Part shown: piece after piece, positions 25,720 through 39,135 of the stretch | Layout of the letters: each line of letters begins with the position of its first letter | Position numbering within the stretch: the first letter of the stretch is position 1 | Origin: a virus | IMG/VR virus record: IMGVR_UViG_3300002144_000072 | Coordinates: 1 to 64,000 of that record | Reading direction: 5' to 3' (one strand) | Length of the DNA stretch: 64,000 nucleotides | The notes under the pieces: generated by a model | What the model was told of the DNA's origin: nothing | Databases searched by the model: none | Seen by the model: only the letters and a program-made list of their open reading frames with translations | Position numbers and translations under genes: made by a program

Positions 25720-28389
25720 ATGAGCTACGTTGACGCATTCTATGATCGCGACGAGGACATTATACGTGTCGTCGAGCGCAATGACAAAGGTGAAAGGCAT
25801 TATAAAGATTATCCTGCCAGACACATCTTTTATTATAAAGACCCCAAGGGCAAGTTCCTTTCAATTAAAGGTGAACCATTAACTAGAGTGACTTCTAGGA
25901 ATGTTAAAGAACACCGCAAAGAACTTGCAATTTATTCAAACAAAAAACTATATGAATCAGACATTAAGCCTGTATTCCGTTGTCTAGAAGACAACTATCT
26001 TAATCAAGATGCCCCCAAGCTAAACGTAGCATGGTTCGACATTGAGGTAGACTTTGATCCAGAACGTGGCTATGCTTCACCAGAAGATGCATTCATGCCA
26101 ATTACTGCTATCGCTGTCTACCTACAATGGATGCAGACTATGGTATGTTTAGCAATTCCTCCTAAGACATTATCAATGGAAGAAGCTGAAAAGCAAGTAG
26201 CAGAGTTTCCCAACACAATGCTTTTTAAGAACGAAGCAGATATGTTAGATACGTTCTTAGACTTAATTCAAGATGCAGACGTACTAAGTGGCTGGAACAG
26301 TGAAGGATTCGATATTCCGTATACTGTTAACCGTGTCACTAAAGTTCTAAGCAAAGAAGATACTAGACGATTCTGCTTGTGGAATCAGTTGCCGAAGAAA
26401 CGTGAATACGAAAAGTACGGCAAGACTGCTATTACATACGACTTCGTGGGTCGTGTACACTTGGATAGTTTGAACTTGTATCGTAAGTACACCTATGAAG
26501 AACGTCACAGCTATCGACTAGATGCTATTGGTGAGATCGAAGTAGGTGAGAACAAGACCGTCTACGAAGGCTCACTTGATCAGTTATACAACAATGACTT
26601 TAAAAAGTTTATTGAATATAACAGACAGGATACTATGCTTCTTGAGAAACTTGACAAGAAGTTAAAGTTTATGGATCTTGCTAACACACTAGCACATGAG
26701 TGTACTGTGTTGCTAATGACTACCATGGGTGCTGTGGCTGTGACCGAGCAGGCTATTATTAACGAAGCTCACAAGCGTGGCATGATTGTTCCTAATCGTA
26801 TTAGCCGTGATGAGAACGTTGATACACAGGCTGCGGGTGCATATGTTGCGTTTCCTAAGAAAGGAATTCACGAGTGGATTGGCTCACTGGATATTAATTC
26901 ACTGTATCCATCTGCGATTCGTGCATTAAACATGGGTCCAGAGACTATTGTTGGACAGTTGCGACAAGATGGTACTAACGACTTTGTTGCTGCTCAAATG
27001 GGCAAGGGTAAGTCATTCGCAGGTGCTTGGGAAGGTATCTTCGGAAGTTTAGAATATACTGCTGTAATGGAACGAAATGTCAGTCGAGATATTACAATTG
27101 ATTGGGAAGATGGTGGAAGCGATACATTAAGTGCTGCACAAGCATACGACTTGATATTTGAAAGCAACCAACCTTGGATGATTAGTGCTAACGGTACTAT
27201 CTTTACCTACGAAAAGGAAGGTATTATTCCTGGCTTGCTCAAGCGTTGGTATGCTGAACGTAAAGACATGCAGAAAAAACTCAAAGAATGTATTGCTGCC
27301 GGCAACAAGATTGAAGAAGAGTATTGGGACAAGCGTCAGTTAGTTAAGAAGATTAACTTGAATAGTTTGTACGGTGCTATCCTTAATGCTGGTTGCAGAT
27401 TCTTTGATAACCGTATTGGACAATCAACTACACTAACTGGTCGTGCTATTGCACAACACATGGCTGGAAAAGTAAATGAAATTATCACAGGCGAATTTGA
27501 TCACACAGGTAAAGCAATTATCTATGGTGATACAGACTCCTGTTATTTCTCAGCGTATGCCACGCTAAGAAAAGAAATTGACAAGGGCGCACTGCCTTGG
27601 ACAAGAGAGAGTGTAATTGAACTTTACGATACTATAGGAGAAACTGTAAATGACACATTCCCAAAATTTATGCAAGATGCTTTCCACTGCCCCAAGACTC
27701 GAGGAGAGGTCATTAAGGCAGGTCGCGAGATTGTTGCTTCCAAGGGACTATTCATCACCAAGAAGCGATACGCAGTTCTCTACTACGACAAAGAAGGTAA
27801 GCGAGCAGACAAAGAAGGACACGGCGGAAAGATCAAGGCAATGGGACTCGATCTCAAGCGGTCAGATACCCCTGTTGTTATCCAAGACTTTTTAAGTGAA
27901 GTATTGACTCGTGTACTAAACGGTGAGACTAAAGAATCTATTCTAGAGTACATTACTGAGTTTAGAACTGAGTTTAAACTTCGTCCAGGTTGGGAGAAAG
28001 GCAGTCCTAAACGTGCAAACAAGATTTCAGAGTATCGAGACAAAGAAAAGAAAGCAGGCAAGACTAACATGCCCGGGCATGTCCGTGCTAGTTTGAACTG
28101 GAACACTTTGAAACGGTTAAACTCTGACAAGTATTCTGTGGCTATTATAGATGGTGCTAAAGTTATTGTCTGTAAGGTCAAAGATAATCCAATGGGGTAT
28201 ACTAGTGTTGCATACCCTGTAGATGAACTACGGTTGCCGCAATGGTTTAAAGACTTACCATTCAATGATGCAGAAATGGAAACTGCTGTCATTGATGAAA
28301 AGCTAGGAAACTTGATTGGAGTACTAGAATGGGATATCAGTTCTACAAGAAATGATAATACCTTCGGTAAACTATTTGACTTTGAGTAA
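25720..28389 (+). CDS. 43: DNA polymerase gp43, family B
   Basis: An 889-residue replicative polymerase with proofreading exonuclease, close in length to T4 gp43 (898). Exo I FDIEVDFD is at residues 106-113 (D107, E109). Motif A SLDINSLYPS lies near 388-397, motif B KKINLNSLYGA near 543-555, and motif C YGDTDS at 602-607. All catalytic aspartates are present. AAGGAG precedes the ATG. Works with gp45 and gp44/62. No intein or split is seen. Confidence 0.95.
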   Translation: MSYVDAFYDRDEDIIRVVERNDKGERHYKDYPARHIFYYKDPKGKFLSIKGEPLTRVTSRNVKEHRKELAIYSNKKLYESDIKPVFRCLEDNYLNQDAPKLNVAWFDIEVDFDPERGYASPEDAFMPITAIAVYLQWMQTMVCLAIPPKTLSMEEAEKQVAEFPNTMLFKNEADMLDTFLDLIQDADVLSGWNSEGFDIPYTVNRVTKVLSKEDTRRFCLWNQLPKKREYEKYGKTAITYDFVGRVHLDSLNLYRKYTYEERHSYRLDAIGEIEVGENKTVYEGSLDQLYNNDFKKFIEYNRQDTMLLEKLDKKLKFMDLANTLAHECTVLLMTTMGAVAVTEQAIINEAHKRGMIVPNRISRDENVDTQAAGAYVAFPKKGIHEWIGSLDINSLYPSAIRALNMGPETIVGQLRQDGTNDFVAAQMGKGKSFAGAWEGIFGSLEYTAVMERNVSRDITIDWEDGGSDTLSAAQAYDLIFESNQPWMISANGTIFTYEKEGIIPGLLKRWYAERKDMQKKLKECIAAGNKIEEEYWDKRQLVKKINLNSLYGAILNAGCRFFDNRIGQSTTLTGRAIAQHMAGKVNEIITGEFDHTGKAIIYGDTDSCYFSAYATLRKEIDKGALPWTRESVIELYDTIGETVNDTFPKFMQDAFHCPKTRGEVIKAGREIVASKGLFITKKRYAVLYYDKEGKRADKEGHGGKIKAMGLDLKRSDTPVVIQDFLSEVLTRVLNGETKESILEYITEFRTEFKLRPGWEKGSPKRANKISEYRDKEKKAGKTNMPGHVRASLNWNTLKRLNSDKYSVAIIDGAKVIVCKVKDNPMGYTSVAYPVDELRLPQWFKDLPFNDAEMETAVIDEKLGNLIGVLEWDISSTRNDNTFGKLFDFE

Positions 28390-28450: not shown

Positions 28451-29188
28451 ATGAAAGATATTTTGCAAGACATTGTGTCGCATACACAAAACCTAGGCTT
28501 CTTAACTACAGTTAAAGTCACAGGCACAGAAAGCGGTACATCTATTAACTCAATGGCAGACGATCGTTCTGTTATTATGGAAGCTACTACTGCTGGTCCG
28601 TATCCAGATATGATCGGTGTCTTTGGTATGCCGCAACTTAACAAGTTGAAGTATTTGCTAGACGGCGCTGAGTATAAAGACAACGCTAAGATTACAATTA
28701 CTACAGCAGAACGTAATGGCGACACATTGCCAGTGGGTTTACACTTTGAAAACAAAGACGGCGACTTTAAAAACGACTACCGTTTTATGAATACAGAAAT
28801 TATCAACGAAAAGATGAAGACTGTCAAGTTCCGTGGTGTTAAGTGGGATGTAGAGATTGAGCCTACAGTTAGTTCAGTACAACGCTTTAACTTTCAAGCA
28901 GGCGCTAACAACGAACATCCTACGTTCTTAGCTAAGACAGATAGCGGCAACTTAAAGTTTATCTTTGGTGATGCTAGCACACATGGTGGTGAGTTTGTAT
29001 TTGCTACGGGTGTTGACGGTAAGTTGGATCGTGGTTGGACTTGGCCAGTGATGCCGATCTTGAGTATTCTTAAGATTGCCGATGTTAATAACACTAAGAT
29101 GTCGTTGAGTAATGAAGGTGCTATCCAGATTACTTTAGACAGTGGTCTAGCAACTTACAAATATATCATTCCAGCACAAGCGGCCTAA
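28451..29188 (+). CDS. 45: Sliding clamp gp45
   Basis: A 245-residue protein with the alternating beta/alpha pattern of a T4-type clamp (T4 gp45 is 228). The segment MIGVFGMPQLNKLKYLLDGA corresponds to the gp45 helix DLNGFLGILSL region, and the protein ends in a beta strand YKYIIPAQ. The assignment rests on length, fold-like pattern and position right after gene 43. In T4 the clamp is also the co-activator of late transcription. GGAG site at 28439. Confidence 0.75.
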   Translation: MKDILQDIVSHTQNLGFLTTVKVTGTESGTSINSMADDRSVIMEATTAGPYPDMIGVFGMPQLNKLKYLLDGAEYKDNAKITITTAERNGDTLPVGLHFENKDGDFKNDYRFMNTEIINEKMKTVKFRGVKWDVEIEPTVSSVQRFNFQAGANNEHPTFLAKTDSGNLKFIFGDASTHGGEFVFATGVDGKLDRGWTWPVMPILSILKIADVNNTKMSLSNEGAIQITLDSGLATYKYIIPAQAA

Positions 29189-29196
29189 ATATTAAT

Positions 29197-30732
29197 ATGA
29201 AAAAACCAGTTGACTTAACACCCTTACAGAAAGACTACGCAGTCTACTTGCCTGCGATTAGTTCTTTTTACTCAACATACATTGCCAAGCAACGTAAAGG
29301 AGAGTTTGTACCCAAGGATCGAATCCCAGCGGGGTTTGATCGCGGAATTGAAGGCATGAACTTCTTAAACCCAGAAGAAGGATACTTCTATTACAAGTTT
29401 GGTTTGTATTCAGCTGGTCATGCACAGTTAGACCTTAACAAGACTATGGATCATGATGCTATGGTACAGCAACGTGATCGTAGCAAGACTATGATCTTAG
29501 GCGACTCAGGCGGATATCAGATCGGTAAAGGCATTCTTAAGTTTGATTGGCTTGACTTTGAAGGCAAAGCAGCTAATAAGACACGTGATGATATTCTTAA
29601 CTGGCTTGAACTAACTGCTGACTGGTCCATGATGCTAGACGTTCCGACTTGGGCATGTGATCATATTCACAGTCCTAAGACCGGATTGAAGTCATTTGAA
29701 GACTGCCTGGATAAAACTCGTCACAACAACAAGTACTTCTTAGAAAATCGCTTAGGTGCTACTAAGTTCTTAAACGTTTTACAAGGAAGCAACTGGGATA
29801 CTGCGGAAGCGTGGTACGAAGGTGTTAAAGAGTTCAGTGACACTAAAGTTTGGGGCGAAAAAGCCGCTGAAGGTTGGGCAATGGGTGGTGCTAATATGTG
29901 CAAGATGCATATTACTCTACGTCGATTAATCACTATGCGCTTTGATGGTATGTTAGAAGGCAAGGATTGGATGCACTTCTTGGGTACTGCACAGTTAGAT
30001 TGGTCGTGCTACTTGACTAGTATTCAACGTCAGGTCCGTAAACATATTAATCCTAACTTTACAATCAGCTTTGACTGTGCGTCACCGTTCATTGCAACTG
30101 CACACGGACTTGTTTACACTAATAGTCAGCATACAGCCAAGCGATGGAGTGTTATCATGGACAAGGCTCCGGACAATAAAGCACTTGCATCACGTCCAGA
30201 CATTCCGTTTCCATTCGAAAGCGAAATTGGTCGTAGACTAAACATCTCTGATATCTGTCATTACAAGCCAGGAATGTTAAACAAGATTGGCAAAGAAGGC
30301 AAGACATCGTGGGATAGCTTTGGTTATGCTCTAATGATGGGTCATAATGTGTATCAACACATTGTTGCTGTACAACGTGCTAACAATTTGGCAGATATCG
30401 AGCTTGCTAAGATTCGTCCAGACTGGAGACAGTGGAAGAAGAACAAAGATCGTGATATGAGCGATGAGTACAGTGATTGGGTTCCACGGAACATCTTGTA
30501 CTTTGATCGCTTTGTTGAAGAACTGTTTGACTGCCCGGACAAAGAATCTGCATTTGATATGATTAAAGAAGCTGAAACTAGAGGCTTTATGCAGAATTTG
30601 GAAGGCTCACGCTTGCGTGGTGGTGTCACTAATATCTCAAATGACTTGTTCTACGAAGAAGGTGAAGAAGATAAAGATTCGTGGAATGACGATCGAGAAG
30701 ATACCGAATTGGATAAACTTGTAGCCGAATAA
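29197..30732 (+). CDS. dpdA: DpdA-like 7-deazaguanine DNA transglycosylase (TGT superfamily)
   Basis: A 511-residue protein of the tRNA-guanine transglycosylase fold. LGDSGGYQIG (D103) matches the TGT acid/base motif DSGGFQ, LQGS matches VQGG, GWAMGG (226-231) matches GYAIGG, and SFDCASP (D293) matches the nucleophile motif FDCxxP. The TGT zinc motif CxCxxC is absent, though a following H region (GHNVYQHIVAVQRA) is kept. Loss of canonical tRNA-type features and the presence of FolE and QueE nearby fit DpdA, which swaps guanine in DNA for preQ0. No ribosome site precedes the ATG. Confidence 0.78.
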   Translation: MKKPVDLTPLQKDYAVYLPAISSFYSTYIAKQRKGEFVPKDRIPAGFDRGIEGMNFLNPEEGYFYYKFGLYSAGHAQLDLNKTMDHDAMVQQRDRSKTMILGDSGGYQIGKGILKFDWLDFEGKAANKTRDDILNWLELTADWSMMLDVPTWACDHIHSPKTGLKSFEDCLDKTRHNNKYFLENRLGATKFLNVLQGSNWDTAEAWYEGVKEFSDTKVWGEKAAEGWAMGGANMCKMHITLRRLITMRFDGMLEGKDWMHFLGTAQLDWSCYLTSIQRQVRKHINPNFTISFDCASPFIATAHGLVYTNSQHTAKRWSVIMDKAPDNKALASRPDIPFPFESEIGRRLNISDICHYKPGMLNKIGKEGKTSWDSFGYALMMGHNVYQHIVAVQRANNLADIELAKIRPDWRQWKKNKDRDMSDEYSDWVPRNILYFDRFVEELFDCPDKESAFDMIKEAETRGFMQNLEGSRLRGGVTNISNDLFYEEGEEDKDSWNDDREDTELDKLVAE

Positions 30733-30743
30733 GGAAACTTACT

Positions 30744-30926
30744 ATGTACGAAAGAAGAATTGCGTTCTTAGAAGAAACACATCGAGTGTTGGATAAACAA
30801 ATTATCTCTTTAGAAAAAAGCGGTGATGCTACTAGCGAGAGAATCACCGATTTGAAGAAAAAGAAGTTGACAATGAAAGATGAACTTGCTATACTAATAC
30901 ATAAGCAAAACAACACCCTGAACTAA
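30744..30926 (+). CDS. DUF465/YdcH-like small coiled-coil protein
   Basis: A 60-residue helical hairpin protein. EETHRVLDKQIISLEKSG, then ITDLKKKKLTMKDELAILI matches the DUF465 (YdcH) pattern EHxxLDxxIxxLE...LKKxKLxLKDEI. AAGGA lies upstream. The family is common in proteobacteria and of unknown role. A sigma70 promoter is embedded in its 3' end. Confidence 0.65.
   Translation: MYERRIAFLEETHRVLDKQIISLEKSGDATSERITDLKKKKLTMKDELAILIHKQNNTLN
30867..30895 (+). promoter_or_regulatory. Sigma70 promoter before 30934
   Basis: TTGACA (30867-30872), 17 nt, TATACT (30890-30895). Predicted start about 30902, 32 nt before the next ATG. In coding sequence, but spacing and position are ideal. Confidence 0.55.
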
Positions 30927-30933
30927 GGCAACT

Positions 30934-31140
30934 ATGTCCTCTACATTTACACTCAATCGAACACAAGTTGAAAAACTTGCTAAGATGACTCAACACTTCA
31001 AAGAAGTAGAATGGTTTACTTTGGAAGAAACACGTTGTAGCGGCATTGGCCCTACGGTCACTGTTAAATTCAACCTTTTCAACGATAATGACAAAGATAA
31101 CGACACTACCGTTGATATTACAGATGTGAGTACATGGTAA
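30934..31140 (+). CDS. Conserved small protein of unknown function
   Basis: A 68-residue acidic protein (LFNDNDKDNDTTVDITDVST) with an AAGG site before the ATG. No domain is recognised. It overlaps the next start. Confidence 0.5.
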   Translation: MSSTFTLNRTQVEKLAKMTQHFKEVEWFTLEETRCSGIGPTVTVKFNLFNDNDKDNDTTVDITDVSTW

Positions 31141-31571
31141 TGAGTGAAGATCAAGAATACGAACAATTTACTAAAAACATGGAAGAACGTTTTCCAAAAA
31201 TGTTTAGTAGTCCATACGGTGGATTTGCTGTAGGTGCTGGCTGGTATCCCATTTTAGAAAAGCTGTGTGATAACATTCAAAATCATGTTGATTGGAAGAA
31301 CAGAGAAACTCTAGTTGTGCCACAAGTTGTCGTAGCACAGATTAAAGAAAAGTTTGGTGGTTTGCGATTTTACTACGATGGCGGCGATGACTACATTCGC
31401 GGACTAGTTAGCATGGCAGAATCGTGGGCAGACCGTGCTTGTGAAACATGCGGTGGCGCTGGTAAAAAGCGTAATAGTGGTTGGATTCGTACGCTGTGCG
31501 ATCTCCATGAAGAAGAACTGCAAGAACGTAAACGTACACAAGAAATGAAAGTATCGGGGTTAGAAGAATGA
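31134..31571 (+). CDS. Conserved protein with CxxC zinc-ribbon-like tail
   Basis: A 145-residue protein starting at 31134 or, in a TAATG overlap, at 31140. The middle contains VVVAQIKEKFGGLRFYYDGG, and the C-terminus has ACETCGGAGKKRNSGWIRTL followed by CDLHEEE, a possible metal site (C-x2-C and a later C-x2-H). No catalytic motif. Function unknown. Confidence 0.5.
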   Translation: MVMSEDQEYEQFTKNMEERFPKMFSSPYGGFAVGAGWYPILEKLCDNIQNHVDWKNRETLVVPQVVVAQIKEKFGGLRFYYDGGDDYIRGLVSMAESWADRACETCGGAGKKRNSGWIRTLCDLHEEELQERKRTQEMKVSGLEE

Positions 31572-32101
31572 AACGTAATTATGAAACAGGTGTTGCTGAT
31601 AGTATTAGCTTCTTTACAGGTATTGAAATCGAAACAACTCCTGCTTACGGAAAGAAAACTCTTTTCGTAGTAGGTGTACATGATCCTTATCAAGTCATGG
31701 CAGAAGCTAATAAACACAATTGCACTCATATATACTTTGGTGCTAATCAAAGTTTTCCTAAACTCGAAACCAACGATGCAGCAGGTTGGGCACTGTGGGA
31801 AAACATGATCTATGTATGTTTAGATGCAGATGACGAGTTTTGGTGTACACTAGACCTCGATGTATCACAAGTTGAAGGACTACTAGAAAGTGGTCTTACA
31901 GAAAAACGTCAGTTCATTCCGCAACTTAGTGTTAAGATCCCATACATTCAGCAACTAGGATACAATGCTACAATTAAAATTGACGATACCGGTTTTAAAG
32001 CATCTAATCCCGGTGTGTGGTGTCACTTGATTGCAGACATGATGGATCGTGAAAGATTCACTAGCTGGGATCAATATGGCAAAGATGAGATTATCAAATA
32101 A
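31568..32101 (+). CDS. Conserved protein of unknown function
   Basis: A 177-residue alpha/beta protein, ATGA-coupled to the preceding gene. FFTGIEIETTPAYGKKTLFV marks the N-terminal half and NPGVWCHLIADMMDRERFTS the C-terminal. No cofactor motif is visible. This kind of protein is widespread in marine T4-like phages. Confidence 0.55.
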   Translation: MKRNYETGVADSISFFTGIEIETTPAYGKKTLFVVGVHDPYQVMAEANKHNCTHIYFGANQSFPKLETNDAAGWALWENMIYVCLDADDEFWCTLDLDVSQVEGLLESGLTEKRQFIPQLSVKIPYIQQLGYNATIKIDDTGFKASNPGVWCHLIADMMDRERFTSWDQYGKDEIIK

Positions 32102-32493
32102 TGGGAACACACGGTCCAGCATACGCAACTGCTTCTAGTAGAGCGTCAACTCGTATATCACGTGGAATAGGCATTCCACTTCAATCCCGTAAAGCAATTA
32201 AAAAAGTAAAAACTATGAAATTAACATTTAGACAACGATTCCTCAACTGGCTTTTTGAAGAAAAAGCAGAAGCTGATGACTACAGTAATCACTCTGTCTC
32301 AGTTGATGAGTCTAAGCTTCATTCCGAAGGCATGCGTTTACAAATATATTCAGCGTCGGGCGGATTTGTTATTGAAACTAGAAAATATGATCGCCGTAAA
32401 GATGAGAACATTACCTCAATGTATGTTATTACAGAAGAAATGGATCTTGGAAACGAAATCGGAAAGATTCTCACTATGGAAAGTTTGAAGTAA
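32101..32493 (+). CDS. Conserved protein of unknown function
   Basis: Starts in a TAATG overlap and has 130 residues. The first 38 residues are Ser/Arg/Lys-rich and look different from the rest; an internal ATG at 32215 (MKLTFRQRFLNWLFEEK) may be the true start, giving 92 residues. The C-terminal half (SGGFVIETRKYDRRKDENIT, then GNEIGKILTMESLK) is a compact alpha/beta domain. Function unknown. Confidence 0.5.
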   Translation: MGTHGPAYATASSRASTRISRGIGIPLQSRKAIKKVKTMKLTFRQRFLNWLFEEKAEADDYSNHSVSVDESKLHSEGMRLQIYSASGGFVIETRKYDRRKDENITSMYVITEEMDLGNEIGKILTMESLK

Positions 32494-32958
32494 ATGTCAC
32501 TTGACAACGATGAACAAGAGTCGTATTATAAGTATATACAACGTAGATCTAAAGAAGAAGATAATAAAATGATTATTAAGCAAGACGTTCGCCCTAACAA
32601 AATGATTTGGGTGACATTTCGAAAAGAGGGTATGCACAAGTATCCTGCCGCACTAACTGATCCTGCTCTAGCTACAGGCGATGAGTATGATGTAAGTTTT
32701 CTAGGCTATCCGCATCGTCATATCTTCCACTTTAAAGTGTGGATTGGTATTACGCACGATGATCGCGATATTGAGTTCATTCAATTTAAACGCTGGTTGG
32801 AAAATCTGTACAAAGAAGGTACACTCCAACTTGATTTTAAGAGTTGCGAAATGATGTCAGGTGATTTATACGACAGCATTTCACAAAAGTATCCAGGCCG
32901 TGAGGTTTGGATTGAGGTCTCCGAAGACGGAGAAAATGGTTCATTTATTAAGTACTAA
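32494..32958 (+). CDS. Conserved protein of unknown function
   Basis: The frame opens at 32494 (154 residues), but a TTGACA-17-TATTAT promoter inside the first codons (32501-32529) would make the ATG at 32569 (MIIKQDVRPNKMIW, 129 residues) the first start. The N-terminal 25 residues are charged and the conserved-looking part begins at MIIKQ. It contains GREVWIEVSEDGENGSFIKY at the C-terminus. Unknown role. Confidence 0.5.
   Translation: MSLDNDEQESYYKYIQRRSKEEDNKMIIKQDVRPNKMIWVTFRKEGMHKYPAALTDPALATGDEYDVSFLGYPHRHIFHFKVWIGITHDDRDIEFIQFKRWLENLYKEGTLQLDFKSCEMMSGDLYDSISQKYPGREVWIEVSEDGENGSFIKY
32501..32529 (+). promoter_or_regulatory. Possible sigma70 promoter
   Basis: TTGACA (32501-32506), 17 nt, TATTAT (32524-32529); predicted start 32536, 33 nt before the internal ATG at 32569. 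Confidence 0.45.
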
Positions 32959-32970
32959 AGGAAAGCTATA

Positions 32971-33264
32971 ATGGCTAAGAACTACAAGGATTATTCCTAT
33001 TTCGCAAATCGCCCAGACGTTGTTAAAGTGTGGGAGGATCTCGAAGCGTATCTAGATTGGTGTAGATTCGAACTCCGAGAGTTCAATCCTGCGGACCTCT
33101 ATCGTAGAGATTCACAGAACTATGGTGCGTATCTGGCAAGTAAACGACCACGTCGCCCTTACCAAGGCAACAAGCCAAGGTTTGATAACAACAAGCCAAG
33201 GTTTGATAACAACAAGCCAAGGTTTGATAACAACAGTCCACGCTTTGAACGAGGTACTCGATAA
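32971..33264 (+). CDS. Small protein with C-terminal NKPRFDN repeats
   Basis: A 97-residue protein with a folded-looking N-terminal part (VVKVWEDLEAYLDWCRFELR) and a basic, disordered tail made of three perfect NKPRFDN repeats and a fourth degenerate copy (NSPRFER). AAAGGAAAG precedes the ATG. The tail, rich in Arg, Asn and Phe, could bind nucleic acid. Function unknown. Confidence 0.55.
   Translation: MAKNYKDYSYFANRPDVVKVWEDLEAYLDWCRFELREFNPADLYRRDSQNYGAYLASKRPRRPYQGNKPRFDNNKPRFDNNKPRFDNNSPRFERGTR
33169..33252 (+). repeat. 21-bp tandem repeat, three perfect copies plus one diverged
   Basis: Identical 21-bp units at 33169-33189, 33190-33210 and 33211-33231, then a diverged copy to 33252. 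Identity at the DNA level indicates recent expansion. Confidence 0.85.
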
Positions 33265-34335
33265 ATGGCAAGAGTTTTCCTTATTGACCTAGAAGCAGTT
33301 GAAACTCGCTATACGGGCCAGTGGAAAACTCACTTGCCTTTACTTCTTGAAAGGAACAAACACGATGTTCATGTTATATCAGGGCCTACGGATATCCCTA
33401 GTGCGACTACGCCTGGGGCTTTCCTTAACTTTGGCGGCACTAATATATATAAGGCTAGCCAAGTTGAGCAGATGGGTCGGCTTTTTTGCAACGGAGCCGT
33501 TCGCCCCGGCGATCATTTTATTTTTACTGATGCTTGGCACCCGGGTATTATCAACTTAAAGTACATGAGTGAATTGCTGGGCATTCCAGTAGTCACACAC
33601 GGCTTATGGCATGCTGGTAGTTATGATCCACAAGACTTCTTAGGACGTCTTGTTGGAGATAAGCCTTGGGTTAGACATGCTGAGAAGAGTTTCTTTTACG
33701 CATTTGACCACAACTACTTTGCCACAGACTTTCACATTGAAATGTTTTGCGAAGAACTTTTAGGCTGTATTGTTGGCTTACGTGAGAATCACGCCAATAA
33801 CAAAATTGTACGCACAGGTTGGCCTATGGAGTATATGCAGAATACACTAGCAATGTATAAGAACATGCCCAAGCGTGATCTTATTTTGTTTCCGCATCGT
33901 ATTGCTCCAGAGAAGCAGGTTGAAATCTTCCGTGACTTAAAAGAACACTTGCCGCAGTATGAGTTTGTTGTGTGCCAGGATCAACAGCTAACAAAGAATG
34001 AATATCATAATTTGTTAGGTGAAGCTAAACTTGTGTTCAGTGCTAACCTACAAGAAACACTGGGTATTAGTTGGTATGAAGGTGCAATAGTTGATGCTAT
34101 TCCTATGGTGCCAGATAGACTAAGCTACAGCGAAATGGCGTTTGAGGCGTTTAAGTACCCTAGCGAATGGGCCGAATCGTTTGAGTCTTATATAAAGTAT
34201 CGTCCGTTGGTAATCGAAAAGATCATCGACTATATGGAAAATTATAAAGATTACTTACCTCGCCTAAATAAACAAGTAAAGTTATTAACAGAAGATTATT
34301 TTAGTTGCAATCAGCTGTTAAAGATGTTAAACTAA
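33265..34335 (+). CDS. GT-B type glycosyltransferase-like protein
   Basis: A 356-residue protein with a two-lobe GT-B look. The C-terminal half contains LILFPHRIAPEKQVEIFRDL (the PHRIxPEK motif of family 4-like transferases) and ETLGISWYEGAIVDAIPMVP, a typical donor-site E-x7-E-type segment. A DNA-modifying role similar to T4 glucosyltransferases is possible given the nearby DNA-modification genes, but sugar donor and acceptor are unknown. Its start follows a GAGG site. Confidence 0.65.
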   Translation: MARVFLIDLEAVETRYTGQWKTHLPLLLERNKHDVHVISGPTDIPSATTPGAFLNFGGTNIYKASQVEQMGRLFCNGAVRPGDHFIFTDAWHPGIINLKYMSELLGIPVVTHGLWHAGSYDPQDFLGRLVGDKPWVRHAEKSFFYAFDHNYFATDFHIEMFCEELLGCIVGLRENHANNKIVRTGWPMEYMQNTLAMYKNMPKRDLILFPHRIAPEKQVEIFRDLKEHLPQYEFVVCQDQQLTKNEYHNLLGEAKLVFSANLQETLGISWYEGAIVDAIPMVPDRLSYSEMAFEAFKYPSEWAESFESYIKYRPLVIEKIIDYMENYKDYLPRLNKQVKLLTEDYFSCNQLLKMLN

Positions 34336-34342
34336 TTATAAC

Positions 34343-34358
34343 AGGTCATCCTCGACCT
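34343..34358 (+). promoter_or_regulatory. Small hairpin before the gene at 34374
   Basis: AGGTC (34343-34347) and GACCT (34354-34358) around a 6-nt loop ATCCTC, in the 38-bp gap, 7 nt before the CGGAG ribosome site. There is no T-run, so it is not a terminator; it may be a translational operator. Confidence 0.3.
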
Positions 34359-34373
34359 TAACTCGGAGAAAAA

Positions 34374-34766
34374 ATGCAATTAGTCAAAATACTAGAAGAC
34401 CTTACTTCTAATCAAGACGAATACAATGAGCTGTATAATACCGATCATTTATTTGTTATCAAAGGAAAAGACCTCGACGATCACGGTCTAATTGATGTCA
34501 TCAACGACATCGATCATCACGAGTGGTTTAGAAAACTGCGAGGTATGGGATTCGGTCCTGCAAAACTACACAACATCCATAACAATAAAGACTGGGTACA
34601 CGGATACATTATTGCTGTATCTAATCAAAATCTAACCAACTTTGAAAAGTTAGCTGTATTAGTTGGAATGAAACACGGGTATACATTTTCAAAAATAGAC
34701 ATCTTTCAATCTAAGAAAGAAAAAGTAGACACTCACTTTGATTCGCTATTTGAGGTAATTCAATGA
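34374..34766 (+). CDS. Conserved protein of unknown function
   Basis: A 130-residue alpha/beta protein, rich in His and Asp in the middle (LIDVINDIDHHEWFRKLRGM). GGAG site upstream and ATGA coupling to folE. I looked for a QueD (6-carboxytetrahydropterin synthase) signature because of its place before folE and found none: no HxH pair with the right spacing. Function unknown. Confidence 0.5.
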   Translation: MQLVKILEDLTSNQDEYNELYNTDHLFVIKGKDLDDHGLIDVINDIDHHEWFRKLRGMGFGPAKLHNIHNNKDWVHGYIIAVSNQNLTNFEKLAVLVGMKHGYTFSKIDIFQSKKEKVDTHFDSLFEVIQ

Positions 34767-35509
34767 CAGATAAAAAAGAAACAGGACTAGACGCTATGGC
34801 AGGTGATGGTGGCTATAGTGAAGGATATCTAGGCGATAACATTCGTGCTAGAATGAAACGTGATAAAAAGCGTTTCTGGGCAGGCGACAACATCAGCGAG
34901 TATGTACATTTTACAGATTTTGATAGACTTGTTGACGAAGCTACCGTCGCCTTTGAAGGCGTACTTGATGCACTGTTAATCGATCGTGAGAATGATCCTA
35001 ACTCGCAAGGTACTGCACGTAGACTTGCCAAGATGTACTTTAACGAAATTATGGCAGGGCGTTATGAATCTGCACCAGACGCAACAGCGTTTCCAAATGA
35101 CACCGAGGACAGATATGAAGGCATGTTGGTTGTACGTAGTGAGTTGCGTAGTATGTGTAGTCATCACCATCAGCCTGTCGCTGGGGTTGCCTACATTGGA
35201 ATTATTGCTGCTCAAAAGTTAATTGGTCTTAGCAAATATACTCGCATTGCACAGTGGTGTGCTAGACGAGGTACACTACAAGAAGAACTCTGCAACGACA
35301 TTGCTCGTGAGATCAGTAAGGCAACTGATAGTGAAAATGTAGCAGTTTACATTCAAGCAGTACACGGATGTTGTGAGAATCGTGGAATTATGGCGCATAG
35401 TAGTCTAACACAAACTACAGTATTGAAAGGTGCGTTCAATACAGATCAAAGCACAAAGAAAGAGTTCTTTGACAACATTAAACTACAACAGGAGTTTGCC
35501 TCAAGATGA
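34763..35509 (+). CDS. folE: GTP cyclohydrolase I (FolE)
   Basis: A 248-residue enzyme converting GTP to dihydroneopterin triphosphate, first step of folate and of 7-deazaguanine (preQ0) synthesis. Zinc ligands are C132 and H135 in RSMCSHHHQPVAGVAYIG and C203 in AVHGCCENRGIM, in the FolE order (C..HH....C). SKYTRIAQWCARRGTLQEEL and LTQTTVLKGAF complete the signature. In this setting with QueE and DpdA it most likely feeds DNA modification. ATGA-coupled on both sides. Confidence 0.9.
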   Translation: MTDKKETGLDAMAGDGGYSEGYLGDNIRARMKRDKKRFWAGDNISEYVHFTDFDRLVDEATVAFEGVLDALLIDRENDPNSQGTARRLAKMYFNEIMAGRYESAPDATAFPNDTEDRYEGMLVVRSELRSMCSHHHQPVAGVAYIGIIAAQKLIGLSKYTRIAQWCARRGTLQEELCNDIAREISKATDSENVAVYIQAVHGCCENRGIMAHSSLTQTTVLKGAFNTDQSTKKEFFDNIKLQQEFASR

Positions 35510-35931
35510 GTACTTGGTTTGCGCCGCTTAAAGATAATCTAATGGTACAACAGCAGATCGACGGCGCATGGCAACACATGGTTGGTGTGATTATGTTAAA
35601 TCAAACAGGAAGGAAGGCAGTGAAACTAACACTGCCCGAATTCTTATATTGGTTTCCTATGCCACAAAATCTGCTAGATGCTGACGAAGAGTTTGTTAAG
35701 AGTATTATCGCCCCGTTAGGAATGGTGAATGTTCGCTATACTCGTTTGTTTAGAATGACCCAAGACTTCTTGACATGGGACAGAAATGATGCTACAATAT
35801 TGTATGGCATTGGAAAGTATGGTTCTGATAGTTATGAAATCTTTTTTAAGAACAACTATAATGTAGAACCTACTGACAAAGAACTAAAACGTTATTTAGA
35901 AGAAGAGGTGTATTATATCTATGCTGCTTAA
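35506..35931 (+). CDS. MBD4-like HhH-GPD DNA glycosylase
   Basis: A 141-residue protein that aligns over its whole length with the glycosylase domain of MBD4: AWQHMVGVIMLNQTGRKAV (MBD4 [20 protein letters not shown]), FVKSIIAPLGMVNVRYTRL, then the HhH motif ILYGIGKYGSDSYEIF (MBD4 LHGIGKYGNDSYRIF) at 98-113 and the catalytic Asp D124 in EPTDKELKRY (MBD4 HPEDHKLNKY). MBD4 removes T or U mispaired with G. A repair or modified-base role is inferred. It is ATGA-coupled to folE. Confidence 0.8.
   Translation: MSTWFAPLKDNLMVQQQIDGAWQHMVGVIMLNQTGRKAVKLTLPEFLYWFPMPQNLLDADEEFVKSIIAPLGMVNVRYTRLFRMTQDFLTWDRNDATILYGIGKYGSDSYEIFFKNNYNVEPTDKELKRYLEEEVYYIYAA
35770..35798 (+). promoter_or_regulatory. Possible sigma70 promoter in the glycosylase gene
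   Basis: TTGACA (35770-35775), 17 nt, TACAAT (35793-35798); predicted start about 35805, upstream of the cupin gene at 35921. Confidence 0.35.
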
Positions 35932-36385
35932 ACTTTTAGAAAGAGTCGGTCGAAAGCGTATCATCTACGACCGTGTGCATAATGAACCTTACTTAGAACG
36001 CTACTACCTCTTTCTTAAAGAGCGTAAGAGTTTTCCTTTTAACGTATTCTTACACAAGTTCTTAAAAGGTGATCCGGACGATGTTCACGATCATCCTTGG
36101 CCTTATGCTACACTAATATTACGTGGGGGCTACTGGGAATACACTCCAGTGTTTACAGACGATGGCACAATGGTCGGGGAAGAAAAACACTGGCGTGGCC
36201 CTGGACATTTTAGAACGTGCCAACCAAACAGCTATCATAGAATTGAATTAGAACCAGGTATCACTGCTTGGACACTGTTCATGCCTGGTCCTCACAAACG
36301 TGAGTGGGGATTTTTAGTTAAGGATAAATGGGTACACAATGAACAGTATCTAGAAGGAAGAAGAATACATGGCAATGAATCATGA
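35921..36385 (+). CDS. Cupin-fold protein
   Basis: A 154-residue protein with a single cupin barrel. DDVHDHPWPYATLILRGGYW holds the first metal-type His motif and NSYHRIELEPGITAWTLFMP the second, followed by GPHKREWGFLV. A likely metal-dependent enzyme or sugar- or amino-acid-binding protein; the substrate cannot be told. Overlaps the glycosylase gene by 11 bp. Confidence 0.65.
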   Translation: MLLKLLERVGRKRIIYDRVHNEPYLERYYLFLKERKSFPFNVFLHKFLKGDPDDVHDHPWPYATLILRGGYWEYTPVFTDDGTMVGEEKHWRGPGHFRTCQPNSYHRIELEPGITAWTLFMPGPHKREWGFLVKDKWVHNEQYLEGRRIHGNES

Positions 36386-36557
36386 TGCAAAATCTAAAGA
36401 CGCAGAAACAGAACGACTGATGGCTGAATTTTTAGCCAAGGGCGGTGCGGTCACTAAAGGCAAAACTAAGCCCATGGCAAATGAATTAGGCATTAGCAAC
36501 TACACTTGGAATAATAAACTTACTAAAGCGGAGAAATCCGCAAAGGATGGAAAATGA
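36369..36557 (+). CDS. Conserved small basic protein
   Basis: A 62-residue Lys-rich protein with the element FLAKGGAVTKGKTKPMANEL. AAGGAAG site, 17-bp overlap with the cupin gene. Family unknown. A loosely similar GGxVTxxP element occurs in the protein at 7104. Confidence 0.5.
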   Translation: MAMNHDAKSKDAETERLMAEFLAKGGAVTKGKTKPMANELGISNYTWNNKLTKAEKSAKDGK

Positions 36558-37111
36558 TTAAAAAACATTATTACAGCTGGCAAGACGTAGAAACAATGTG
36601 TACTGATATATCGTTGCAGATGTATCAAGACAACTGGCGTCCTAATTATATTGTAGGTATTACTCGTGGTGGTAATGTTCCTGCTACTATTCTCAGCAAT
36701 ATGCTCGGCGTTCGATGCGAAGCACTTAAAGTTAGCCTACGTGACGACGAACAAGGGCCAGAAAGCAATTTATGGATGGCCGAAGATGCATTTGGATATA
36801 ACGATCCTCCCAAGAATGGCATCACAGGATCACGTTGGGATATTTCGCTGCGTAAGAATATTCTTATTGTAGATGATATTAACGATAGCGGTGCTACATT
36901 TAACTGGATTAAAGAAGATTGGCAGGGTAGTTGTTTGCCCGACGAAGCAGCTTGGAACACTGTTTGGGGCAACAATGTTCGGTTTGCAGTATTAACTGAA
37001 AACGGATCTAGTTCTTTTGATGATGTTTCGTACTATTCACACGCTGTAAACAAGTTAGAAGAAGATACTTGGTTAGTTTACCCGTGGGAGAAGGTAGGTC
37101 AATATGATTGA
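36554..37111 (+). CDS. Phosphoribosyltransferase (type I PRTase)
   Basis: A 185-residue protein with the PRPP motif ILIVDDINDSGATF (about 102-115) and the upstream loop YIVGITRGGNVPATILSNML. This is the layout of purine (xanthine/guanine/hypoxanthine) PRTases, which turn a free base and PRPP into a nucleotide. Base specificity is unclear. ATGA-coupled to the small gene before it. Could salvage purines released from host DNA. Confidence 0.8.
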   Translation: MIKKHYYSWQDVETMCTDISLQMYQDNWRPNYIVGITRGGNVPATILSNMLGVRCEALKVSLRDDEQGPESNLWMAEDAFGYNDPPKNGITGSRWDISLRKNILIVDDINDSGATFNWIKEDWQGSCLPDEAAWNTVWGNNVRFAVLTENGSSSFDDVSYYSHAVNKLEEDTWLVYPWEKVGQYD

Positions 37112-37337
37112 TACACGCATTGATGTGTACTGCACAGATAAAAATAAAAATGTTGACGGATATATTATAAATGTCAATAGGGGAAAGTTTCTAGAAATTG
37201 CCATTAACACTGTGAAAGTTAAGATGGCATTTGAAGCTAAACATGCTCACTATGTAGGCAATATGGCTGGCTACGAGTTTATCGTAAAGGACCGTGACTT
37301 GCCAGACGAACAACGAGAATATGCGAGAAAGCGATGA
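37104..37337 (+). CDS. Conserved small protein of unknown function
   Basis: A 77-residue beta-rich protein (VDGYIINVNRGKFLEIAINT). AGG site; overlaps the PRTase gene by 8 bp. Common in aquatic T4-like phages; no function known to me. Confidence 0.5.
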   Translation: MIDTRIDVYCTDKNKNVDGYIINVNRGKFLEIAINTVKVKMAFEAKHAHYVGNMAGYEFIVKDRDLPDEQREYARKR

Positions 37338-37723
37338 AAAAAGTTATTTTTTCAGAAGTAATGGACAAGGAAGATAGCAACGGTGCTCCTTGGACAGAAT
37401 TAGAGTACGACGACTTTCATGTTGCTGTGTACAAAGACAGCTATCCGGTCACAGAAGGTCACAGACTGTTTGTACCTAAGTATAATAATGTTGATGTTCT
37501 AAAAGATGCGTTTAACGATGCAGTTGATCGAGGTCTTAAAGGAATGTTAGACGGAGAGTGGGACGGCTTTAATATCGGTCTCAACGTTGGCGAAGTTGCA
37601 GGACAAACTTGCTCTTGGCCACATGTTCACTTAATTCCAAGAAGGAAAGGTGACATGGAAGACCCTCGTGGCGGGGTACGTCACGTTATACCAGAAAGAG
37701 GAAATTATAAATTATGGAAATGA
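37334..37723 (+). CDS. HIT-family nucleotide hydrolase/transferase
   Basis: A 129-residue protein with a HIT-like signature near residues 91-105 (GQTCSWPHVHLIPRRKGD). Only HVHLIP of the H-x-H-x-H triad is present; the position of the first His holds Trp or Ser, so activity may be reduced or changed. FHVAVYKDSYPVTEGHRLFV is the conserved N-terminal strand pair. Substrate probably a nucleotide conjugate. ATGA start. Confidence 0.7.
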   Translation: MKKVIFSEVMDKEDSNGAPWTELEYDDFHVAVYKDSYPVTEGHRLFVPKYNNVDVLKDAFNDAVDRGLKGMLDGEWDGFNIGLNVGEVAGQTCSWPHVHLIPRRKGDMEDPRGGVRHVIPERGNYKLWK

Positions 37724-37923
37724 GAGAAACTCTATTACAAGCTGTGCGTAATCATGCGTGGGGTCTTATTGAAAAACATCGTGCTAACGTAGAAGTATAT
37801 CTTGCTAATCCCGTTGGTATTGGCGAGCATTCTGATATTATTGAAGCCATCGAACACGAGCTTAAAGCTATAGCCGATTATCACGATCAGATCGAAGTAC
37901 TTGATAAATTTTTTAAAGACTAA
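37714..37923 (+). CDS. Conserved small protein of unknown function
   Basis: A 69-residue helical protein with YLANPVGIGEHSDIIEAIEH and an acidic C-terminus. A second ATG lies two codons in. Overlaps the HIT gene by 10 bp. Function unknown. Confidence 0.5.
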   Translation: MEMRETLLQAVRNHAWGLIEKHRANVEVYLANPVGIGEHSDIIEAIEHELKAIADYHDQIEVLDKFFKD

Positions 37924-38115
37924 ATGAATACAGTACATATTCGCTGGACTTCTAGTATAAACTGGAACGAATTGTGTATTAGGGTATTAGAACATTACGG
38001 ACTTCCAGGCGGCAAGTATACTACTAAACTAGATACTAATTGGATGGAATTTATTTTTAAAGATGAAAAGGATGCTTTTTTATGCAAGATAATGCTCAGC
38101 GAACATGGACAATAA
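37924..38115 (+). CDS. Conserved small protein of unknown function
   Basis: A 63-residue protein (HIRWTSSINWNELCIRVLEH; ends DAFLCKIMLSEHGQ). It starts directly after the previous stop and overlaps the next gene by 34 bp. No recognised domain. Confidence 0.5.
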   Translation: MNTVHIRWTSSINWNELCIRVLEHYGLPGGKYTTKLDTNWMEFIFKDEKDAFLCKIMLSEHGQ

Positions 38116-38282
38116 AACTCGAGGAAGATCCAGATACCGGTGATTTGGTTCTTCCATTTCCTCCAGACCTGCTAGCACAAGTAGGTTGGGATTTTGGAGA
38201 TACCCTAATTTGGGATGAAGGTAAAGACGGCACATTTATATTGTCAAAAAAGGTTGACAACGATTCAGAAAAGAGTGTATAA
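38082..38282 (+). CDS. AbrB/SpoVT-like small DNA-binding protein
   Basis: A 66-residue protein with the swapped-hairpin look of AbrB-type proteins: DTGDLVLPFPPDLLAQVGWD, then FGDTLIWDEGKDGTFILSKK. Such domains act as antitoxins or transition-state regulators. No toxin partner is seen next to it. Its end overlaps the queE promoter. Confidence 0.55.
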   Translation: MQDNAQRTWTIKLEEDPDTGDLVLPFPPDLLAQVGWDFGDTLIWDEGKDGTFILSKKVDNDSEKSV

Positions 38283-38283
38283 T
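38254..38283 (+). promoter_or_regulatory. Sigma70 promoter for queE, leaderless geometry
   Basis: TTGACA (38254-38259), 18 nt, TATAAT (38278-38283). With -10 at -12 to -7, +1 falls on 38290, the A of the queE ATG. There is no ribosome site in front of that ATG. Confidence 0.75.
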
Positions 38284-38289
38284 AATAAC

Positions 38290-39135
38290 ATGAGCAAATT
38301 AAAAATAGCAGAGCTGTTCTACAGCATTCAAGGTGAAGGACGCTACATGGGCGTTCCTTCTGTTTTCCTACGTGTCTTCGGATGCAATTTTAAATGTGCT
38401 GGATTCGGCATGCCTCGAGGAGAACTTTCAAACGAACTTGAGGCAATAGTATCTCGTGTTGCAGACTTTAAAGATTATAAAGAACTGCCACTAGTAAGTA
38501 CAGGATGTGACAGCTATGCTAGTTGGGATCCTCGTTTTAAACATTTAAGTCCAATGCTTACTAGTGAAGCTATTGTAGATCGTATTATGGAAATTCTTCC
38601 GCAAGATCACTGGAAGGACGAGCACCTGGTTATTACAGGCGGTGAGCCTTTACTAGGATGGCAACGTGCTTATCCAGATTTACTAAACAATCCTAAGATG
38701 CGTGACTTGAAAGAGATTACATTTGAAACAAATGGTACTCAGAAACTTACTCCGGAATTTAAAGGCTGGTTAGCTAAGTGGAACAGTACAGTTGGACATG
38801 AAGTCACATTTAGTGTAAGTGCTAAACTTCCATGTAGTGGCGAGAAGTGGGAAGAAGCGATCCTTCCAGAAGTTGTTTGTGAGTACGAAGAAGTAGGTAC
38901 AGCATACTTGAAGTTTGTTATTGCTACAGAACAAGACTTTGCTGATGCAGAACGTGCTGTTGAGGAATATCGTGCAGCAGGATTTAAAGGACACGTTTAC
39001 TTAATGCCAGTGGGTGGTGTAGAAAGCGTCTATGCATTAAACAATAAGAATGTAGCATTGTTAGCAATGAAGCATGGTTTGCGATATAGTGATAGATTGC
39101 AGGTACCCTTATTTAAAAACGAATGGGGTACTTAA
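38290..39135 (+). CDS. queE: QueE-like 7-carboxy-7-deazaguanine synthase (radical SAM)
   Basis: A 281-residue radical SAM enzyme. SIQGEGRYMGVPSVFLR and the FGCNFKC start match QueE. The cysteine motif is split: C32-x3-C36 is followed not by CD but by a 34-residue insert (AGFGMPRGELSNELEAIVSR...), and the expected C-D-T-like element reappears as GCDSYASW (C73). LVITGGEPLL follows at the normal distance. QueE makes the precursor of preQ0. In frame start codons upstream are within the promoter. Expected to work with FolE. Confidence 0.82.
   Translation: MSKLKIAELFYSIQGEGRYMGVPSVFLRVFGCNFKCAGFGMPRGELSNELEAIVSRVADFKDYKELPLVSTGCDSYASWDPRFKHLSPMLTSEAIVDRIMEILPQDHWKDEHLVITGGEPLLGWQRAYPDLLNNPKMRDLKEITFETNGTQKLTPEFKGWLAKWNSTVGHEVTFSVSAKLPCSGEKWEEAILPEVVCEYEEVGTAYLKFVIATEQDFADAERAVEEYRAAGFKGHVYLMPVGGVESVYALNNKNVALLAMKHGLRYSDRLQVPLFKNEWGT

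Follow-up and report, generated by a model that had tools for sequence, protein, structure and literature searches.

QueC converts 7-carboxy-7-deazaguanine (CDG) to preQ0, and the end of the T4 DNA polymerase binds the sliding clamp gp45. The subfamilies DpdA1, DpdA3 and DpdA4 were reportedly described by Cui et al. in 2023, who are also said to have assigned CDG decarboxylation to DpdL, and Cellulophaga phage phiST is said to carry decarboxylated 7-deazaguanine in its DNA. The DpdA2 protein of Vibrio phage nt-1 (YP_008125322), which serves as our DpdA2 reference, is named in PMC6884629 and comes with modified DNA according to that paper. Here, we compare these systems with a 64,000-nucleotide stretch of viral DNA (the window), which lies in a 97,111-base IMG/VR record (IMGVR_UViG_3300002144_000072) that may itself be a fragment. 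T4-like phage genes for polymerase, clamp, RNase H, tail and baseplate are read from the open reading frames (ORFs) of the record. A gene at 29197 encoding a protein with the tRNA-guanine transglycosylase (TGT) fold, FolE at 34763 and QueE at 38290 belong to one replication operon. Briefly, we consider it somewhat probable that a DpdA-type enzyme, a CDG-derived base and a glycosyltransferase encoded at 33265 all belong to one pathway in this phage. The partnership with a glycosyltransferase, together with the lack of QueC, suggests a previously undescribed base in the DNA.

The 29197 protein contains the motifs DSGGYQ and FDCASP. All 40 relatives in the alignment keep Asp103 (DSGG), Asp148, Gln196 and Asp293 (SFDCAS); by TGT numbering, we take Asp103 to be the acid/base, Asp148 and Gln196 to read the base, and Asp293 to be the nucleophile. 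The CxCxxC zinc motif was found in none of 41 DpdA representatives. Searches with the 29197 protein gave no Pfam match to E 0.1, no PHROG match to 0.01 and two poor matches among PDB sequences (E 0.096 and 1.5). An AlphaFold model built from 40 sequences has a mean predicted local distance difference test (pLDDT) score of 84.6, and all 19 of its Foldseek matches in the PDB below 0.001 are TGTs (best E 1.6e-7). The top row of the VIA comparison is 2ash_A (Z 19.4, root-mean-square deviation (rmsd) 4.6, 307 aligned), and identity in the best structural rows is 14-16%. Profile alignment with hhalign linked the 29197 family to a DpdA2 profile of seven proteins (prob 78, P 1.8e-5, 186 columns; two control profiles at most 0.2) with both catalytic motifs in register (DSGG; SFD/SYD), and DpdA2 phages were not among the records found by tblastn with the window DpdA. 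When the DpdA profile was compared by hhalign with eight candidates, each as a single sequence, none matched convincingly (best prob 11.6); CAjan gp35 and HVTV-1 gp69, taken as named members of the DpdA1, DpdA3 and DpdA4 subfamilies, reached at most 1.2. BUCT-ZZ01 UTS52045, likewise of 511 residues, was judged by eye not to be a DpdA.

There is good support for predicting that the 29197 protein is a DNA-guanine transglycosylase of the DpdA type, because the fold, the active-site residues, the lost zinc motif, the linkage to 7-deazaguanine genes in unrelated phages and the distant DpdA2 profile match point the same way. By sequence, it is provisionally placed on a deep branch distantly related to DpdA2. 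Since the fold alone shows no function, the role on DNA rests on the context and the relatives, which make DNA very probably the substrate. The original prediction had read a TGT fold that keeps both Asp motifs and has lost CxCxxC, and had proposed a DpdA-type enzyme; motifs, alignment and modelling bear out the former, and the lines of evidence just listed bear out the latter. The structure search it had proposed returned the TGT fold, and the solved structures nearest to the model are tRNA enzymes.

Relatives of the window DpdA allowed us to examine its neighbourhood in many genomes. A tblastn search found 13 phage records: 11 PA5oct-like Pseudomonas phages (about 45%), Sinorhizobium phage Phosso and Vibrio phage 2.275.O. 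From IMG/VR, we took 149 loci that encode the enzyme, namely the best matches of two scans, a choice that favours close relatives; the neighbour counts below are taken over IMG/VR loci with enough room downstream, outside the window's own record (L001-L003) and the isolate loci. FolE accompanies the enzyme in 56 of the 64 loci that extend at least 7 kb downstream, and QueE does so in all 21 that extend at least 10 kb, so the linkage is above chance. Upstream, the polymerase gene ends within 2.5 kb of DpdA in 125 of the 126 loci with room, and a clamp gene lies within 600 nt in 137/142. QueE is 2.8 kb downstream of the transglycosylase in PA5oct. In 2.275.O, the DpdA homologue is followed by QueF, a transporter, QueC, FolE, QueE (by match) and QueD. 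Searches for related loci with the 2.275.O protein found none, and those with the Phosso protein and the VH7D DpdA2 found two loci each.

The most constant partner of the enzyme is the 33265 glycosyltransferase, which has a homologue in all 68 loci with at least 5.5 kb downstream. Its gene directly follows that of the transglycosylase in PA5oct with a 1-base overlap, overlaps the DpdA2-type gene by 4 nt in Acidovorax phage ACP17 within an operon that includes QueD, FolE and QueE, and lies directly upstream of an annotated queuine tRNA-ribosyltransferase gene in Xanthomonas phage X1, the product of which is placed with DpdA2 by sequence. In Synechococcus phage BUCT-ZZ01, one gene (family B, see below) stands between the glycosyltransferase and the DpdA2-type gene, and QueE, QueD and FolE belong to the same stretch. 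In Phosso, the glycosyltransferase is beside FolE and QueE, and the DpdA homologue is elsewhere in the genome. The glycosyltransferase is thus common to two DpdA subfamilies that tblastn does not connect and that only a distant profile match links. We regard it as quite likely that the 33265 protein acts in the 7-deazaguanine pathway. PhiXhv-12, the two records that are its sisters, and Ep032, all matching at 26% identity across 63% of the query, are not counted among the glycosyltransferase-bearing records; the weak PhiXhv-12 matches, which lie beside annotated GlcN-malate deacetylase and aminotransferase genes, were rejected. A second GT4-like protein, UTS52035 (L157:16778-18121), was observed beside the DpdA2-type gene of BUCT-ZZ01.

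The precursor pathway that these phages encode lacks QueC at the curated cut-off. Neither QueC nor QueD was found in the whole 97,111-base record, so the search beyond the window that the original prediction had suggested gave, within this record, the same result. Among 20 other glycosyltransferase-bearing phage records, complete isolate genomes included, none has QueC over the curated cut-off: it is absent from 14/14 long IMG/VR records, PA5oct, Phosso and BUCT-ZZ01 (all 17 with the glycosyltransferase), as well as from ACP17 and MIJ3, and X1 gives a match below the cut-off. These 20 records represent about six lineages, with PA5oct and MIJ3 as close relatives and the IMG/VR records as possible fragments. 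QueD was found in 5 of the 14 long IMG/VR records, PA5oct (two copies), Phosso and BUCT-ZZ01. The reverse pattern, QueC present and the glycosyltransferase homologue absent, was observed in 2.275.O, VH7D, HVTV-1, CAjan and CPt10 (5/5). QueC is also found in nt-1, pf16 and Ps15 (3/3, the Ps15 match being partial at 30.8 bits), which are not among the 19 records with a glycosyltransferase match. QueF passes its cut-off in 3/22 records (2.275.O, VH7D and HVTV-1). The simplest reading is that the pathway ends at CDG with no preQ0 step. Because QueC is missing, at the cut-off, from every tested glycosyltransferase-bearing record, a base derived from CDG becomes the likelier product, and we consider it likely.

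An ordinary preQ0 base (or preQ1 or archaeosine) would be made if the phage boosts FolE and QueE, the host gives QueD and QueC, and the glycosyltransferase and family B serve another process. Phages with DpdA and a partial pathway are known, and host participation has been proposed (PMC6884629); QueC matches occur in all 14 control cell genomes, 12 of them over the cut-off, and 2.275.O, with a related DpdA, has both QueC and QueF. Against this stand the absence of QueC over the cut-off from 20/20 records in which FolE, QueE and partly QueD are kept, and the company that the glycosyltransferase and family B keep with two DpdA subfamilies, which together leave a preQ0 product unlikely. The preQ0 route implied by the original prediction is therefore not what the record and its 20 counterparts favour: the core claim of a DpdA-type enzyme stands, and the chemistry probably differs.

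A CDG-derived base may involve the small protein B encoded at 32494, which we propose to act on CDG. Each of the six lineages that bear the glycosyltransferase (window type, Phosso, PA5oct, ACP17, X1 and BUCT-ZZ01) has a family B member, and the family further occurs in the phiST group, RHph_I1_18, Bakedbeans, Ahp1_CNU-2021, D479, MA9V-3 and Roos. A QueC search of seven genomes from the latter set gave no match in six and a partial match of 32.8 bits in the seventh, D479. Conversely, nt-1, VH7D, pf16, Ps15, 2.275.O, CAjan, HVTV-1 and CPt10 are absent from the 26 + 23 records with B at E 1e-5. The B alignment shows a conserved His, then HxH, then SCE, a pattern that to us recalls the zinc site and pterin-binding Glu of 6-pyruvoyltetrahydropterin synthase (PTPS)/QueD. 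The match of B to a nine-sequence QueD profile is weak (prob 28, 43 C-terminal columns only; three controls at most 2.1). B may be the CDG decarboxylase DpdL reported by Cui et al. 2023. B also forms the C-terminal part of a longer protein in Vibrio phage Bakedbeans (L189:6212-7363, 383 aa) and Chryseobacterium phage MA9V-3 (L193:4464-5345, 293 aa). Near B, a DNSAFE, DNGAGDHD or QDSGLF motif followed further on by D-S/T occurs in proteins that look by eye like other TGT-like enzymes: L191:7683-8540 (D479), L190:7450-8322 (Ahp1), L163:7943-8722 (phi19:2), L193:5818-6612 (MA9V-3) and L192:5281-6192 (Roos).

If B were a CDG decarboxylase, DpdA could insert a base that stays plain, giving dDG or dCDG (the deoxynucleosides of 7-deazaguanine and CDG), while the glycosyltransferase decorates another base, a protein or a surface glycan. 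The occurrence of B without this glycosyltransferase in the phiST group, and the lack of QueC in the six B-bearing phages other than D479, are consistent with such a plain base. The glycosyltransferase, however, overlaps or adjoins DpdA in PA5oct, ACP17 and X1, and stands beside DpdA homologues without B in bacterial contigs (7/68 loci), which makes this combined reading unlikely.

In the reading that we prefer, the glycosyltransferase shares a pathway with DpdA and a CDG-derived base. Its model (pLDDT 82.9) has a GT-B fold with a Foldseek match to BshA (3mbo_C, E 4.0e-10), and the top VIA row is 6tvp_B (Z 22.0, rmsd 3.4, 309 aligned). Across 33 rows of the family, Arg212, Lys217 and Glu272 do not vary and Glu264 is almost invariant; we take Glu264/Glu272 to be the EX7E pattern of GT4. 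The window protein has no Pfam match above the cut-off. The enzyme might instead act on a pterin, as in the cyanobacterial biopterin glucosides, with FolE and the PTPS-like proteins feeding a pterin glycoside, and a Synechococcus biopterin glucosyltransferase is indeed among the structural matches (5zes_A, E 3.1e-7; 5ze7_B, Z 19.3, rmsd 3.6, 296 aligned). However, many GT4 enzymes match equally or better, QueE, which is outside pterin-cofactor synthesis, is in every locus with room (21/21), and the gene overlaps DpdA rather than FolE in ACP17 and PA5oct, so we hold a pterin glycoside to be highly improbable. Least probable of all is a tRNA-modifying TGT by which the phage tunes host queuosine: the fold and the closest solved structures are those of tRNA enzymes, but the protein lacks a Pfam match to E 0.1 and its family the zinc motif (41/41), its distant profile match is to DpdA2, which accompanies modified DNA in nt-1 (PMC6884629), and its gene sits between the clamp and replication genes.

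The C-terminal tail of the predicted DpdA proteins offers a possible route to the replication fork. In many relatives, the tail carries a peptide close to the polymerase C-terminus, such as QNTFNNLFDL in L102, compared with polymerase ends like STFNNLFSFD. Tails were scored over the last 80 residues with a matrix from 33 polymerase peptides, with 8.15 bits as the 99% point of shuffled tails. At least 8.15 bits was reached by 26/41 DpdA representatives versus 29/3980 other ORFs, and at least 14 bits by 14/41 versus 1/3980. Paired ends of polymerase and DpdA were NNTDLFDW and NNNDLFGW in 2.275.O, SLDDLFE and TLDELFE in ACP17, SLESLFG and SLEELFG in X1, and SLEDLFGW and SLDDLFG in Ps15. The tails covary between genomes across the two DpdA subfamilies: the own pairing was reached in 20 of 100,000 shuffled pairings for 11 genomes, and in 34 of 5040 permutations within seven DpdA2 genomes, with shared ancestry contributing to both statistics. 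In nine isolate genomes, DpdA fits its own polymerase tail better than shuffled tails (<0.05) in six, and the other pathway proteins do so in 1/42, the exception being the second BUCT-ZZ01 glycosyltransferase (0.008). Because the tail resembles the C-terminal peptide of the phage's own polymerase and covaries with it, docking on the sliding clamp is suggested, and at the level of the family we judge it fairly likely from these sequences; for the window's own DpdA, it is doubtful. In BUCT-ZZ01, the end of UTS52035 (SLEDFFND) resembles those of the polymerase (STLDDFFS) and the DpdA2 (SLDSFFD), and in 2.275.O, the 370-aa protein after DpdA (L006:16726-17838) has the polymerase-tail-like MFNELFDF (9.1 bits) at its N-terminus.

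These observations can be arranged into a pathway in which, beyond FolE and QueE, we infer every enzyme step. GTP would be converted to CDG by FolE, QueD (from the host or an unsequenced part of the genome) and QueE, and without QueC the route would halt at CDG, short of preQ0. The base in use is probably made from CDG by B, and the 29197 transglycosylase would swap guanine in phage DNA for a 7-deazaguanine. In relatives with a good tail peptide, the enzyme is probably held on the sliding clamp, so that modification would follow the fork. The GT4-like 33265 protein probably glycosylates either that base or the DNA that carries it, and the phosphoribosyltransferase at 36554 perhaps recycles the guanine freed by base exchange. 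Carboxymethylcytosine offers a recent parallel, in which a carboxyl group likewise serves as the handle for hypermodifying DNA (PMC12783734). The complete picture, a glycosylated 7-deazaguanine in phage DNA made by a QueC-less route, with a transglycosylase that is clamp-docked in many relatives and a GT4 enzyme that adds the sugar, is put forward tentatively.

Several observations weigh against this pathway. FolE is missing from 8 of the 64 loci with room, many IMG/VR records are fragments and mutually related, the whole set comprising about six lineages, and the eight comparison phages were chosen as known 7-deazaguanine phages and form a biased sample. For the precursor, X1 has a QueC match of 16.2 bits, D479 combines B with its partial QueC match, and a host QueC could complete preQ0. 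B acting as a decarboxylase could leave no C7 handle for a sugar. For the tail, just 51 of 149 full-length DpdA relatives pass 8.15 bits, the window peptide NISNDLFYE scores 4.4 bits, inside the shuffled range, and the DpdA proteins of three of ten isolates, nt-1, pf16 and Phosso, do not fit their own polymerase tails, with PA5oct borderline (0.04, 0.056).

The coordinates of the genes are given in Table 1. ORF, Pfam and PHROG checks place FolE, the TGT-fold protein and QueE where the original prediction had put them; its inventory was right about these three pathway genes and had overlooked the glycosyltransferase, the PTPS-like protein and the polymerase-like tail peptide of the relatives.

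Table 1 Features of the replication operon around the predicted DpdA gene (window coordinates).
Feature	Position	Strand	Evidence
Family B DNA polymerase (gp43-like)	25720..28389	+	ORF; homologues in PA5oct, 2.275.O, Phosso and others; C-terminal end NTFGKLFDFE
Sliding clamp (gp45-like)	28451..29188	+	phmmer 1.1e-46 to Phosso 'DNA polymerase III sliding clamp beta'; 2e-47 to PA5oct EST35_0314
Predicted DpdA-type transglycosylase, 511 aa, deep branch related to DpdA2	29197..30732	+	TGT fold, invariant active-site residues, DpdA2 profile match
Disordered C-terminal tail, residues 473-511	30613..30732	+	pLDDT <50 at 472-511; degenerate polymerase-tail-like peptide NISNDLFYE
Family A, conserved in module	31568..32101	+	Homologues in 141 loci including ACP17 (1.8e-40), upstream of DpdA2 there
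Small PTPS-like protein of family B (PHROG 17812), which may process CDG	32494..32958	+	PHROG match; His...HxH...SCE pattern
GT4-like glycosyltransferase, most constant partner	33265..34335	+	Homologues in loci with room; predicted GT-B fold
FolE, GTP cyclohydrolase I, 248 aa	34763..35509	+	Pfam PF01227 GTP_cyclohydroI 3.8e-40; PHROG 2197
Cupin-like protein	35921..36385	+	PHROG 4786 (annotated cysteine dioxygenase) 5.4e-38
Phosphoribosyltransferase	36554..37111	+	Pfam PF00156 1.8e-11
QueE, 7-carboxy-7-deazaguanine synthase, 281 aa from ATG 38290	38290..39135	+	PHROG 2076 'QueE-like radical SAM domain' 8.7e-52; ORF opens 38215

The remaining genes of the module vary in their conservation. The three QueE cysteines align with most of the eight phage QueE proteins compared, and an insertion separates the second from the third. 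The cupin-like protein is present in 55/61 loci with at least 8 kb downstream, with no homologue in the isolate loci searched, and the phosphoribosyltransferase, of which BUCT-ZZ01 and PA5oct have relatives, in 38/55 with at least 9 kb. A search of 157 other loci gave no counterpart of a methyltransferase ORF after QueE (39123-39767). One of these loci is L007; its DpdA does not differ from that of the window over residues 2-511, and its next gene is about 650 nt closer. The ORF looks like a recent insertion. A 130-aa ORF directly upstream of FolE (34374-34766), seen in the window and L007 only among the loci searched, encodes a product that ends with the polymerase-tail-like HFDSLFEV (11.0 bits). 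In Stenotrophomonas phage Ps15, an annotated myo-inositol-1-phosphate synthase (L184:4505-5755) lies within the FolE-QueC-DpdA2-QueE operon.

Relatives of the window DpdA also occur in contigs of cellular genomes (68 loci, best-segment identity 23-74%). A glycosyltransferase homologue lies near DpdA, without family B, in seven of them (L216, L226, L248, L249, L252, L257 and L258), mostly Rhodobacterales and Rhizobiales by title. Five further loci of the 68 carry family B as well, four being phage-looking contigs of metagenome-assembled genomes with 45-49% identity. Large proteins of about 590-700 aa adjoin bacterial DpdA homologues (L249:7306-9063, L247:3961-5973, L205:4058-5848 and L237:3655-5772); the BLAST cluster around that of L247 covers 28/68 loci, the other large proteins grouped apart, and two that were checked have no Pfam match. 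Six proteins of the bacterial DpdA-homologue loci likewise gave no Pfam match.

To our knowledge, there is no report of a 7-deazaguanine in DNA that bears a sugar, or of a DpdA docked on the clamp. In a literature search mostly outside subscription journals, no titles or abstract starts among the papers listed linked 7-deazaguanine to a glycosyltransferase or DpdA to a sliding clamp, and 'deaza' is absent from the published texts on phages MIJ3, Paride, Callisto and PA5oct. If the proposed pathway is true, phage guanine hypermodification would be wider than the preQ0/archaeosine set, and a branch that occurs in many metagenomic T4-like phages and also in jumbo phages would produce a base derived from CDG and perhaps glycosylated. 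Glycosylation of the purine could protect against nucleases that tolerate plain 7-deazaguanines, and docking on the clamp would account for how an enzyme that exchanges bases is directed to the phage's own DNA during replication. The cultured phages Paride, PA5oct, Phosso and BUCT-ZZ01 make the question directly testable.

Compared with the described systems, the locus shares parts with each. The DpdA2 proteins of nt-1 and its relatives have catalytic motifs that align with those of the 29197 family, and several have polymerase-like tails, but no tblastn link exists and nt-1, VH7D, pf16 and Ps15 have QueC and no homologue of this glycosyltransferase. The tRNA TGTs share the fold (2ash_A) and the active-site residues, whereas the 29197 family lacks CxCxxC and the 29197 protein is longer, with a disordered tail and 14-16% identity. 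The Cellulophaga phiST/phi19:2 group resembles the locus in having FolE, QueD, QueE and family B without QueC, and differs in its DpdA-like protein (gp042, by eye) and in the lack of a glycosyltransferase homologue among the 19 matched records. BshA/MshA-type GT4 enzymes share the GT-B fold with the 33265 protein (3mbo_D, Z 21.8, rmsd 3.7, 304 aligned) at about 11-12% identity, and 33265 is linked to 7-deazaguanine genes, not to thiol synthesis. T4 alpha-glucosyltransferase is a phage DNA-glycosylating enzyme and, in a 2026 paper (PMC13216743), is reported to bind the gp45 clamp, a binding that does not explain the level of alpha-glucosylation; here, in contrast, it is mainly the transglycosylase that carries the polymerase-like peptide, and a purine is the likely target of the sugar.

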